In this document: one piece after another, positions 31,870-56,205 of the stretch | Layout of the letters: each line of letters starts with the position of its first letter | Position numbering within the stretch: position 1 is the stretch's first letter | DNA from: Candidatus Bathyarchaeota archaeon | Lineage (GTDB): Archaea > Thermoproteota > Bathyarchaeia > Bathyarchaeales > Bathycorpusculaceae | Direction: 5' to 3' | DNA length: 64,000 bases | Assembly (NCBI GenBank): GCA_026014725.1 | Contig: JAOZHV010000049.1 | Coordinates: 1-64,000 of the forward strand | Made by a program: the position numbers and the translations under genes | Notes under the pieces: generated by a model | What the model was told of the DNA's origin: nothing | Database searches by the model: none | What the model saw: only the letters and a program-made list of their open reading frames with translations

Positions 31870-31998
31870 CATATTTGGAGCATATTAGGAACTCATTGCA
31901 GAATCCTGTAGGGGGTAGGTGCTGTTGGCTGTTTTCTAAGCCAAAGGCATGTTGAAAATCGTGTTTTTATAGGGAGGTAGGGTCTGTGGCAGAGCAAC
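31870..31998 (+). repeat. Dispersed repeat family, full-length copy A
   Basis: 129 bases that match, in opposite orientation, 53982-54113 along their whole length. Landmarks in order on plus: CATATTTGGA, GGGGGTAGGTGC, AAGCCA, GGCATGTTGAAAATC, a TATA-like TTTTTATAGGGAGGTAGG and GGCAGAGCAAC. A small hairpin (ATTTT/AAAAT, 31999-32010) follows. The TATA-like box with transcription start near GAGCAAC suggests a small RNA read toward the 3' end of the convergent CoA-binding gene. It fills most of the 276-base gap between the nucleotidyltransferase and the CoA-binding gene. Confidence 0.7.
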
Positions 31999-32027
31999 AT
32001 TTTCTAAAATCTCAGATGCCTTTTGCT

Positions 32028-33442: not shown

Positions 33443-33522
33443 AAATGGTTAATTTCAGCGTTTTTAATAAAGCTTGAATGTTTTTTCTTTAGTAGTTGTT
33501 GACTAGACAATTGCTTGCACGC

Positions 33523-33640
33523 ACCGCGGTTTACCGCGGCCATCAGGGGTTTGGCTGATGCGGCTTTGGCAGTTTTACCACGGCCATCCTGTAAGGGATT
33601 AATTGGGTACTGGTCGTAGTAACAATGGTCGCAGTAAAAC
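33523..33640. repeat. Cluster of short direct repeats and palindromes
   Basis: TTTACCGCGGCCATC (33530-33544) recurs as TTTACCACGGCCATC at 33574-33588; between them CATCAG and CTGATG can pair as a hairpin. TGGTCGTAGTAA is followed after 2 bases by TGGTCGCAGTAA (33612-33637). CCGCGG occurs twice in 17 bases at 33523-33539. This could be a structured RNA, an operator region or repeat debris. Confidence 0.5.
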
Positions 33641-33672
33641 AACAAGCTACTGAACTGATTTTGCGCCAATAG

Positions 33673-33725
33673 TAACCTGCCCCCTATAGGTTTCAACATA
33701 GAACCACTAATAGGCTCCAAATATG
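33673..33725 (-). repeat. Dispersed repeat family, half copy B
   Basis: On plus the stretch reads AACCTGCCCCCTATAGG, then CATAGA, TAATAGGCTCC and AAATATG. It matches the distal half of copies C (54060-54113) and A (31870-31922, reversed). The promoter-like half is missing here, so this copy is either a relic or shows that the distal half acts by itself. Confidence 0.6.
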
Positions 33726-48503: not shown

Positions 48504-49078
48504 TGTATAATGAACTTTACTCGGCATGGCTAAGAGAAACCACTGAGAAATCCCTTGGTGGTTTACCACCTGACTTTTACGCACGCATCAAAGACTACAT
48601 AAAACGCATTAATCAAGAAGACAAATCGCTTGACAAAAGATCCGTAAAGATAAACTTGCTTGAGCATGAAGCGCAAAATGTTAAACGCATGCTTGAGGAA
48701 CTGCTAAAATTAAGGTACCAAAAAATAATCGACGCCGTCACGGAACTTCAAAAAGTGCCGTCAGAATTGTTAACGGTTGAAGAAACCAAACTGTGCGAGT
48801 GTTTTCTCACCTTTACTGATAACTACCAAAAGTTCTCTGAAAGCTTGATGCAGGGGCAATCTGCAACCAAACTTGACGTATCCACTGCCTCATGCGGCGC
48901 CCCCTCAGTGGCTAATAAGCGGTTGACAGTCCGCTTTTCGAAAAGCATTCCAGCAATCATGGGCGCTGACCTCAAGTCGTATGGCCCGTTTGCCGCTGAG
49001 GACGTGGCTTCTCTGCCAGCGGATAACGCGAAGATTTTGGTTAAACAGGGTTTAGCCGTTTTGGTTGACGTTTCCTAG
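48503..49078 (+). CDS. gins51: GINS complex subunit Gins51
   Basis: A 191-residue GINS subunit with the helical A domain first (GLPPDFYARIKDYIKRI) and the B domain at the C terminus (TVRFSKSIPAIMGADLKSYG, DVASLPADNAKILVKQGLA), the reverse of Gins23 at 11975. The priS-gins51 pairing is a standard archaeal arrangement. The 3' end overlaps the convergent archaeosortase gene by 27 bases. Confidence 0.95.
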   Translation: MYNELYSAWLRETTEKSLGGLPPDFYARIKDYIKRINQEDKSLDKRSVKINLLEHEAQNVKRMLEELLKLRYQKIIDAVTELQKVPSELLTVEETKLCECFLTFTDNYQKFSESLMQGQSATKLDVSTASCGAPSVANKRLTVRFSKSIPAIMGADLKSYGPFAAEDVASLPADNAKILVKQGLAVLVDVS

Positions 49079-50131
49079 CGGCACTGTGGGCGCGGCTTGT
49101 TTTTTACCGTTGAATTTTCGGTAGAGTTTTTGGCTTGCTATGATAAGTAGCGGGTAGGAGATTATCCATGCCATTGCGTAGAGTGGCCCGTAGTAGAAGT
49201 GGAACATTTGCACTTGGTTTGAGTTTGTGCCAAACTCCATGCCAATGGTGAATATGGTTGCGATACGTAGCACGTTGATGAAGTAGGTGACTATGATGCC
49301 CATGCTAAAGTATCCTATTCTTGCCCTCCACGACATTGGAATCCGCTTCAAAAACAACAAGGTCACAGCCGTGAAAATCAGCAAGCTCTCGATGCCTGCG
49401 CATGGCCACGCTATCGCGAACTTTGCTGTTCCCAACGGTCCAGTGGCTTGTATGGTCGGCATGCCCGTGCCGACTTCGGTTCCAAGCACTGCAGTGTAGC
49501 CCATTAAGCCAAGCAGATTAGATGCCAGCATGGCAGTTGTCGGCACAAGTAGCTGGAAAGGTGTGAACTCTCCATACGGAAATACGTTGTCTATAGTATA
49601 GAGAATGCCCACTAGCGCCACGAATATGGCTGGCAAAATAAACGCCATCAAGCCTTTTTTTCCGTACAACAGAAGCGTTGTCAGGCAGAACAAGCCTGAG
49701 AAAACAAGGTATTCGATGGCAAGCGGCATAGAATCGTAAAAAGCAACCCCGCTTGTCTGTGCCCAGTTTGCGATTGCACCGTTCAAACCAAAATAGTTCG
49801 CCAGCACCACGTACAACGTTGGTAGTAGCAGCGCCACTGTAAGGGCGACTAGGCGTGTCTTGTTTTGCCTGCTGATTTTCGGCACGATTTTTTCCCAACT
49901 CAAAATAAACTCCAGAGCTATGAGCCAGACAAAGAACAACAGGAAGGTTCTGCCTTTCCACATGAAGTTAAACGAGTCCTGCCCCGACAGCTTGAGGTAG
50001 GGGTCATAGGGGTTAAGCAAGAACAACAACGCTAAGGGTACAATGAACGCGATTATGGGCAATAACTTGAGCGCGGTTGCTCTGCTTTGCTGAAAAGAAT
50101 TTTTCATCGAGGAAATCATTCCTTTAATCAA
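49052..50131 (-). CDS. Archaeosortase/exosortase family protein
   Basis: A 359-residue integral membrane protein with about nine helices. The three catalytic residues of the family are seen: Cys in WPCAGIESL, Arg in NVLRIATIF and His in MFHFYYGPLY. Archaeosortases process C-terminal signals (PGF-CTERM-like) of surface proteins and may attach them to lipid. Two in-frame ATGs (50131 and 50107) could serve as start. No cognate target with a clear sorting signal is seen in the window. The gene ends inside gins51. Confidence 0.88.
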   Translation of the reverse strand: MIKGMISSMKNSFQQSRATALKLLPIIAFIVPLALLFLLNPYDPYLKLSGQDSFNFMWKGRTFLLFFVWLIALEFILSWEKIVPKISRQNKTRLVALTVALLLPTLYVVLANYFGLNGAIANWAQTSGVAFYDSMPLAIEYLVFSGLFCLTTLLLYGKKGLMAFILPAIFVALVGILYTIDNVFPYGEFTPFQLLVPTTAMLASNLLGLMGYTAVLGTEVGTGMPTIQATGPLGTAKFAIAWPCAGIESLLIFTAVTLLFLKRIPMSWRARIGYFSMGIIVTYFINVLRIATIFTIGMEFGTNSNQVQMFHFYYGPLYAMAWIISYPLLIIASQKLYRKFNGKKQAAPTVPLGNVNQNG

Positions 50132-50236
50132 GATAAAATTTAAAGTTATTCCAATTTAAAAAAGGCTATGCCCATCGATTAAGGCTTCACTGCGCAAAGA
50201 ACGACCAAATATGACAAAACAGCAAATGCGCCTCTG

Positions 50237-50271
50237 TTTATATAGGGGGATGGGGGTAGCCAGAGAGCAAC
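50237..50271 (+). repeat. Dispersed repeat family, promoter-like half copy D
   Basis: TTTATATAGGGGGATGGG, then GAGAGCAAC (50263-50271), matches the proximal halves of copies A and C. The start region continues CAACAAAACATAAC, which recurs as CAACAAAACATGAC on the minus strand near 53850. The copy lacks the distal half found in A, B and C. Confidence 0.65.
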
Positions 50272-50408
50272 AAAACATAACGTTTACGCAAAAAGGTTGC
50301 AAACGAAAGATAACTGCAAAAATCGCATCTAGCACCGCAAAGCACGCCCAAAAAACTTAATTGATTTTTCAATGCTCGCGACGTCGTTTTGCGTTTTTGA
50401 TGGTAACG

Positions 50409-53807: not shown

Positions 53808-53889
53808 AATTTAGGTCTTTTTTGAGTTTTTTCGCCTTTTCTAGGCTGTCATGTTTTGTTGTCAGGGGAAACTATAGCCCCCTTATTTA
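53808..53889 (-). repeat. Repeat pair F: candidate minus-strand RNA with TATA-G5 box
   Basis: Read on minus: TATA-like TAAATAAGGGGGCTATAG (53889-53872), then CAACAAAACATGAC about 25 bases later, a GCCT/AGGC hairpin with an A-rich loop, and AAAAAAGACCTAAATT (53823-53808). The first and last parts recur at 12898-12916 and 12629-12644; the start region recurs at 50269-50282. This looks like a small RNA gene converging on rps19. Confidence 0.6.
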
Positions 53890-53939
53890 TAGTATTAATA
53901 AGCGCTGTGTGTGAAGGTTTCAGGGGGGAGTGGTGGCGG

Positions 53940-53981: not shown

Positions 53982-54113
53982 GTTGCTCTGCCGATAGAGC
54001 CTATCCCCCTATTTAAAGCGCTGATTTTCAACATGCTAATGGCTTGAGAAAGCGTCAATGGCACCTACCCCCTATAGGTTTCTGCATAGAGTTTCTATTA
54101 GCATCCAAATATG
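53982..54113 (-). repeat. Dispersed repeat family, full-length copy C
   Basis: 132 bases matching copy A (31870-31998) in reverse orientation over the full length. On plus: GTTGCTCT with AGAGC pairing, CCCCCTATTTAAAGC, GATTTTCAACATGC, CACCTACCCCCTATAGGT and CCAAATATG. ATGCTAAT (54033-54040) and ATTAGCAT (54097-54104) are a perfect inverted repeat enclosing the ACCTA/TAGGT hairpin, so the distal half can fold as an RNA or cruciform. Confidence 0.7.
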
Positions 54114-54820: not shown

Positions 54821-55228
54821 TTACCCACCGTATAGTTTACTAAGAATTTTTTTAATACTTTTTTCCAAGTCATGTTTTACGTCATATTCCCAAATTCGAA
54901 TAACTGTCCAGCCTGCCTTTTTTAACTCTCGATTAACTAGGCGGTCTCTTTTTTTATTCTGCTCAATTTTTTTCCTCCAGTATTCAACATTTGATTGAGG
55001 TTTAATGAAGCGTTTAGGATTACAATGCCAAAAATCAGAATCGATAAAGACAGCGATTCTTTTTTCAGAAAAAACAATGTCAGGTTTGCCAATCAATGCC
55101 TTATCATAACGAGTAAATTGAAGACCTCTTTTTTTGAGTTCATTTATTATCATTCGCTCTGCCTTTGTATCTGTAGAACGTATCCTTTGCATTGTCTTTC
55201 TGCGTTGTTCGGGCGTTAAATTATCCAT
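54821..55228 (-). CDS. vsr: Very short patch repair (Vsr) endonuclease
   Basis: A 135-residue nuclease that nicks at T:G mismatches left by deamination of 5-methylcytosine. NLTPEQRRKTMQRIRSTDT, LIGKPDIVFSEKRIAVFID, DFWHCNPK and WRKKIEQNKKRD are the family blocks, with catalytic Asp in PDIV and His in FWH. It is last gene of the methylase-nuclease operon, 5 bases after the PLD nuclease, and should repair the lesion that the adjacent methylase promotes. Confidence 0.93.
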   Translation of the reverse strand: MDNLTPEQRRKTMQRIRSTDTKAERMIINELKKRGLQFTRYDKALIGKPDIVFSEKRIAVFIDSDFWHCNPKRFIKPQSNVEYWRKKIEQNKKRDRLVNRELKKAGWTVIRIWEYDVKHDLEKSIKKILSKLYGG

Positions 55229-55233
55229 ATTTT

Positions 55234-56205
55234 TTACTTAGAAAAGTCCATATAATAAGTTTCATTGTCTATCTTATAAAAGTCGAGATGTGTTCGACCA
55301 TATCTATTTAAATCCTCTTTTCTGATAAATTGACCAGACCTCAAGCCAAGTCTACGCCTGAAATATTGCCCTATTAAGCTATTGTTGTGAGGGGTATGTA
55401 TAGCTTTACCATTAGCCTGTGCTCTAGTGCAAATTAACACTTTATCATCATCGGTATAAACAGTAAAATGAACCCCGACGGCAGGGAAGAAGTCAGAGCG
55501 GTAAACAGTCGAAGGCAATCTGATGTAGGCTTGATTAGGGTCTCTATCATACTCGGGTCTTTGCCCCCAATTTAATCCTGACCTTTTTGGAAGACTTCCG
55601 GAGTTATCAAGCAAGGAAACTCGTATTTGCGGTAGACCTTGTAGAACAAAATCAGGGGGTATCTCTTTATCTTCAAGGAGTTTTTTCTGTCTTTGCAGTC
55701 GCTTGTACGTTTGATCATTATAAATAGTTACAAAATTTTCGGCGTCTATGTGATTGCAATAAATTGTGTCACTTATTAAACTTTTGTAATATTCTGAAAG
55801 ATTCTCAGCTGAGCATTCAACCATTAATTCTTGTTGGTTGCTAAAAGCAGTTTGCGTATAATTCGCTGAGCCTGTAAATGCAAATAACGGCATGTCGTTT
55901 TTGAACCATACGTAAACTTTAGAGTGAACTGGAGGAGTTTTCACAAAATAGCTACAATAAAAGGAATTCTTGAAATCTTCGTTAACAAGCTGTTGGAAGC
56001 CACGGTGATTGCTTTTTGACAGTCCATCCTGTGAGGTCATACCTACTATTAATTCGACATTTACTTTGGCGCCTATGTTTTTCAATGTGTTTAAGTGATG
56101 AAAAGCCATAGCTGGAGTAGCATACCCCGATATGATGCGAAGTTTATTACACCCTTTTTCTGCTGGTTTTATTAGAACACGATTGAATAAATCATTGGTA
56201 ATCAT
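55234..56205 (-). CDS. PLD-type type II restriction endonuclease (NgoFVII-like)
   Basis: A 323-residue nuclease. The phospholipase D motif is present once as HSKVYVWFKND...GSANYTQ (about residues 95-118), as in NgoFVII/BfiI-type restriction enzymes, which work as dimers without metal. The C-terminal half (residues about 180-323) would recognise DNA. It sits between a cytosine methylase and vsr, all on minus with short gaps. The recognition sequence cannot be deduced. Confidence 0.85.
   Translation of the reverse strand: MITNDLFNRVLIKPAEKGCNKLRIISGYATPAMAFHHLNTLKNIGAKVNVELIVGMTSQDGLSKSNHRGFQQLVNEDFKNSFYCSYFVKTPPVHSKVYVWFKNDMPLFAFTGSANYTQTAFSNQQELMVECSAENLSEYYKSLISDTIYCNHIDAENFVTIYNDQTYKRLQRQKKLLEDKEIPPDFVLQGLPQIRVSLLDNSGSLPKRSGLNWGQRPEYDRDPNQAYIRLPSTVYRSDFFPAVGVHFTVYTDDDKVLICTRAQANGKAIHTPHNNSLIGQYFRRRLGLRSGQFIRKEDLNRYGRTHLDFYKIDNETYYMDFSK

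Follow-up and report, generated by a model that had tools for sequence, protein, structure and literature searches.

The repeat present in several copies in the window (the whole 64,000-nt stretch of DNA analyzed here) is an old family of short non-coding blocks that follow one another in a fixed order and are scattered between the genes of Bathyarchaeota. We lean towards the view that these are REP/BIME-like, non-autonomous mosaic elements that spread by copying within genomes through the action of a putative mobiliser.

When copy C was used as the query, 48 matches with E ≤ 0.001 were detected across the contigs of its own 2.56-Mb Bathyarchaeota genome, many of them with E values from 1e-20 to 1e-46, which excludes a chance origin. 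The dispersed family with two separable parts, one of them promoter-like, that was proposed in the earlier note is thus borne out as a modular family, and the additional copies that the proposal required are numerous. The same search confirmed the reported match of copies A and C over about 130 bases in opposite orientation: it is full-length, with 79% identity (E = 2e-21), A reading from R to P on the plus strand and C on the minus strand. In an alignment of 26 full copies, the complete unit spans ~131–138 nt and has sharp outer edges. As the earlier note stated, the copies are intergenic: none of A–D (Table 1) lies inside a confident gene, and the gene overlaps of copies involve short, weak ORFs only. 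Copy D indeed consists of the proximal half alone, whereas for copy B the claim of a lone distal half holds in that P is missing but fails in that R and H are both present and run on into a further module, I. Copies within a genome are ~74% alike, a value inflated by the choice of loci by exact core, so that a very recent burst is not visible.

Table 1. Copies of the repeat, their modules and adjoining features in the window.
Feature	Position	Strand	Details
Copy A, short form R-H-P, complete	31870..31998	+	R ~31870-31921, H ~31922-31960, P 31964-31999
Copy B, R and H, start of the long form without P	33640..33725	-	R 33725-33674
Copy B continued, I module right after H	33513..33642	-	nested inverted repeats of the TTTACTGCGACCAT / ATGGTCGTAGTAAA type
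Exosortase/archaeosortase-like gene (PF09721)	49052..50131		divergent from L3; adjacency also in genomes G043 and G006
Copy D, P module alone	50236..50274	+	divergent gap before ribosomal protein L3
Second P-like (T) module	53863..53892	-	downstream of copy C, same orientation
Copy C, short form R-H-P, complete	53982..54113	-	R ~54113-54062, P 54018-53983
Restriction island adjoining copy C, after S19	54821..56205		DUF488, Vsr endonuclease, NgoFVII-type restriction endonuclease; behind the L3-L4-L23-L2-S19 cluster; L22 not next after S19

The order and polarity of the modules are fixed, R-H-[I]-P. The R module (CATATTTGGATGCTATTAGAAACTCTATGCAGAAACCTATAGGGGGTAGGT) is 52 nt long and built of 11–12-nt CTATT-type units, the H module (GCTATTGGCGCTTTTTCAAGCCATTAGCATGTTGAAAA) is ~43 nt long, and in the P module (GCTTTATATAGGGGGATAGGGTCTATGGCAGAGCAACAAA) the layout described earlier, a TATA-like box followed by GGGGG and GAGCAAC, is correct and represents the P-family consensus. 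R can stand in tandem, with core-to-core distances that peak at 60–63 nt and form a second group at ~98–104 nt; P is often followed by a P-like module, T, and the GGGGG core is common to R, P and T, with a spacing of ~61 nt. Modules that share a gap have the same polarity by 20 to 1. Neighboring elements are convergent (26), divergent (24) or tandem (37) in random proportions, and, in one of several tests, the distance was shorter for convergent than for divergent pairs (p = 0.006).

Several additional features of the modules were observed in passing. Across all species, R varies in two short stretches through a small number of recurring, partly species-specific variants, those after CTAATAG including AAACTC, GATATC, TGGTTC, TCAATC and TAATAC. 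In one locus (L015), several same-orientation R arrays separate small genes, one of them PIN-domain-like by eye, giving the appearance of repeat-bounded gene blocks. A shared word, AAAAAGACCTAAATTCCATTTCYAATAG, follows P modules in several species (loci L008, L082, L191, L188 and L195); ahead of L3, it is conserved in G013 (L191) and G022, even where P has been lost.

In several copies, R-H and P are ~140–150 nt apart, and between H and P this long form contains the I module, a 115-nt double inverted repeat. I has 17 matches in its own genome and, as judged from their flanks, all 17 stand directly after H, that of copy B included; nearly all are then followed by a similar spacer and P. A separate MITE inserted into the repeat is therefore rejected, and I is an internal part of the long form R-H-I-P rather than an independent insertion. 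Among the 163 genomes of the order, I was found in its own genome only. Given that the 17 copies occupy one internal place and are absent from the other genomes, the long composite has spread within the lineage, unless I was inserted 17 times at a single internal site.

The exact core pattern recovers 66 stretches in GTDB genomes, all the named ones from Candidatus Bathyarchaeota, and has no match in viral contigs. The family is found in 44 of the 163 genomes of the order, mostly metagenome assemblies in which contig ends may have lost repeats; 40 of the 44 belong to one family, in which the distribution is patchy across many genera. Within the genus, a multi-species model of P separates rich genomes, with at least ~50 to more than 140 copies, from nearly empty ones (0–5), with G022 at 18; the counts for rich genomes are lower bounds, scoring having been limited to 150 candidates, and rare diverged copies may be missed because some of the sequences used to build the model were chosen by eye. 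In several species there are more than 100 copies of P alone, whereas their sisters nearly lack it (at least 98 copies versus 1, and at least 144 versus 1, in two sister-species comparisons). On a ribosomal-protein tree, the rich and empty states alternate, with ~6 changes that include sister pairs; among the rich versus empty sisters are G009/G021, G015/G016 and G043/G005 and, for P, G013/G024. R-H and P vary in part independently: G007 and G024 are rich in R-H and poor in P, and G011 and G015 the opposite. The copies cluster by species, with 27 label changes versus 62–66 after shuffling, a result in which similarity is likewise inflated by the exact-core choice of loci.

With respect to genes (simple ORF calls), the four arrangements of flanking genes are similarly frequent among 132 placed clusters (39, 32, 32 and 29). 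A role specific to 3'-UTRs was accordingly rejected, about a quarter of these copies being located between divergent genes. Copies approach gene ends closely and mostly keep at least 50 nt away from gene starts, and neither the repeat as a whole nor P shows a consistent gene orientation.

We propose that a putative enzyme recognizing the modules would make copies in trans and that modules could move singly or as composites; selection would purge those landing in genes or within ~50 nt upstream of their starts, and old ones would persist, partly homogenized through recombination between copies. The dispersal of I, the clustering by species and the bimodal abundance all favor such trans-acting amplification, and copying around the genome is probably the work of a putative machinery of this kind. 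In its favor we also count the sharp edges, the fixed polarity, the absence from sister species, the lack of a gene-orientation rule and a gap that differs between the sister genomes G018 and G011 by a segment containing R, its flanks being alignable. Against it we count the absence of any identified transposase, of a clean junction and of a very recent burst. In 83 comparable gaps of G011 and G018, no clean filled/empty junction or target duplication was found, with one imperfect pair; in the same two genomes, elements are rarer in conserved gene adjacencies (3 of 71) than in broken ones (24 of 87), a comparison in which gap length is an uncontrolled confounder. The obvious candidates for the mobiliser do not fit: a Y1 transposase is lacking in G000 and in the element-rich G006, G007, G011, G013, G018 and G022 and is present in several genomes empty of the repeat. 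Neither Y1 nor TnpB tracks the copy number, so that the RAYT/IS605 hypothesis was rejected, and searches for these two families identified no transposase for the repeat.

Random insertion, furthermore, does not predict sites that are common to many species in one orientation, and such sites were found. Copy C lies on the 3' side of rpsS (S19) and antisense to it, and in G013, G022 and G024, an antisense R-H is located 63–69 nt past the rpsS stop codon; in G000, R-H-P lies farther out from rpsS. P-type modules are found antisense after rpsS in G000, G006, G007, G011, G015 and G018, and upstream of L3, in the same orientation, in G000, G013 and G015. Four of these were first found by eye (after rpsS in G018, G006 and G015; before L3 in G013), and the reversed-sequence control gave no hit, some of the real hits being weak (E above 0.01). 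In 80 kb of G013, all 4 element loci have counterparts in G022, and G024 retains one such counterpart next to the orthologous gene, the other neighbor having changed. Same-site copies of different species are not mutual nearest relatives, copies of one genome being more alike. Such long-shared sites favor persistence, preferred-site targeting or selection.

Maintained protein-binding sites are the strongest rival explanation, and a serious one, although we regard it as the less likely reading. The modules would be binding sites of a putative lineage-specific DNA-binding protein involved in chromosome organization, insulation or transcription control; selection would keep the sites, and all would be lost together once the protein was lost. 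The shared positions and orientations near rpsS and L3, the conservation of all four loci between G013 and G022, the GGGGG core repeated across R, P and T at ~61 nt, and the all-or-none occurrence per genome are consistent with this possibility. However, the sites of copies A and B in the window are not shared with relatives and that of D only in part, the dispersal of I requires a copying process, there is no gene-orientation rule, and no candidate protein was identified. As a particular and rather unlikely version of this idea, directional R/P sites with GGGGG every ~61 bp might let a lineage-specific protein organize or insulate archaeal chromosomes, the sites being long fixed in place, homogenized by conversion and disappearing along with the protein. 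DNA of nearly this length is wrapped by an archaeal histone tetramer, and the combination of GGGGG cores with this spacing is suggestive.

A role of the repeats as transcribed RNA elements or small-RNA genes, in which P would serve as promoter or I would be a structured RNA, is improbable. The TATA-like box of P with GAGC ~25–30 nt downstream would fit such a role, as would the arms of I, in which 94% of cells are paired and several G-U exchanges occur on the R-to-P strand. Nevertheless, no double-sided (compensatory) change was found in the arms of I and the shuffled control was not exceeded, so that an RNA role of I is not proven. The distal-half hairpin described earlier does not hold up as a conserved structure either: of 26 full copies, 2 have the entire 8-bp stem ATGCTAAT/ATTAGCAT and 11 the entire ACCTA/TAGGT arms. 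A stem inside H pairs in 67% versus at most 43% in slid controls; among 118 aligned H sequences, no consensus structure or covariation was found, so that a covarying hairpin or pseudoknot in H is not supported. Strict and relaxed Rfam searches matched no family. P closes the unit on its 3' side and is often aimed at gene ends, and as a gene promoter it is not supported because 43 modules point towards the start of the next gene and 33 towards its end.

That the repeats are ordinary MITEs from a known insertion-sequence family, for which their small size, their dispersed copies and the inverted repeats of I could be cited, is highly improbable given that the elements have no terminal inverted repeats or recognizable ends of that type (the edges CATATTTGG and GCAGAGCAACAAA are unrelated), that I never occurs alone, and that Y1 and TnpB do not follow the repeat. 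On the features tested, the repeat is not a member of the REP/RAYT, IS605 or TIR-type MITE classes, and the earlier impression that no known element has this form stands, with Rfam, Y1 transposases and TnpB offering no explanation.

The copying model, which we prefer, places the family next to several known systems. The archaeal MITEs (reviewed in PMC10969869) are similarly short, non-coding and dispersed, whereas the Bathyarchaeota repeat lacks terminal inverted repeats and, in the Y1 and TnpB searches, an identified parent transposon. The repeats of halovirus HF2 (PMC8707807) are also archaeal and intergenic, with AT-rich promoter-like motifs at conserved positions, but they are viral and drive genes, whereas P is chromosomal, has no consistent gene orientation and has a core unmatched in viral contigs. 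With the STAR elements of Staphylococcus (PMC3532100), the repeat shares intergenic direct repeats with variable spacers and an abundance unrelated to species relatedness; it differs in sequence and module structure, and in that some of its sites are conserved between species, unlike those of STAR.

The closest parallel is with the bacterial repetitive extragenic palindromes, REP/BIME, which are short, intergenic, high-copy composite mosaics (PMC2817692, PMC3733652), as is the Bathyarchaeota repeat. The tetranucleotide GTAG happens to precede H, as in REP; for GTAG repeats, bacterial phyla are listed (PMC3733652). Unlike REP, H is weakly palindromic and does not covary; unlike the alternating units of BIME, the composite has one fixed polarity; unlike REP/RAYT, most element-rich genomes lack the Y1 transposase; and the host is archaeal and the sequences are different. 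A literature search on Bathyarchaeota repeats found nothing relevant. The family has sites common across a genus, and its copies number over 100 in some species but close to none in their sisters; this contrast between rich and empty genomes provides a ready comparison for finding the mobiliser or a binding protein. It also calls for caution, dispersed TATA-like motifs in such genomes being mostly repeats rather than gene promoters. To the bacterial theme of REP-like mosaic repeats, the Bathyarchaeota family adds a comparable, apparently undescribed archaeal system.
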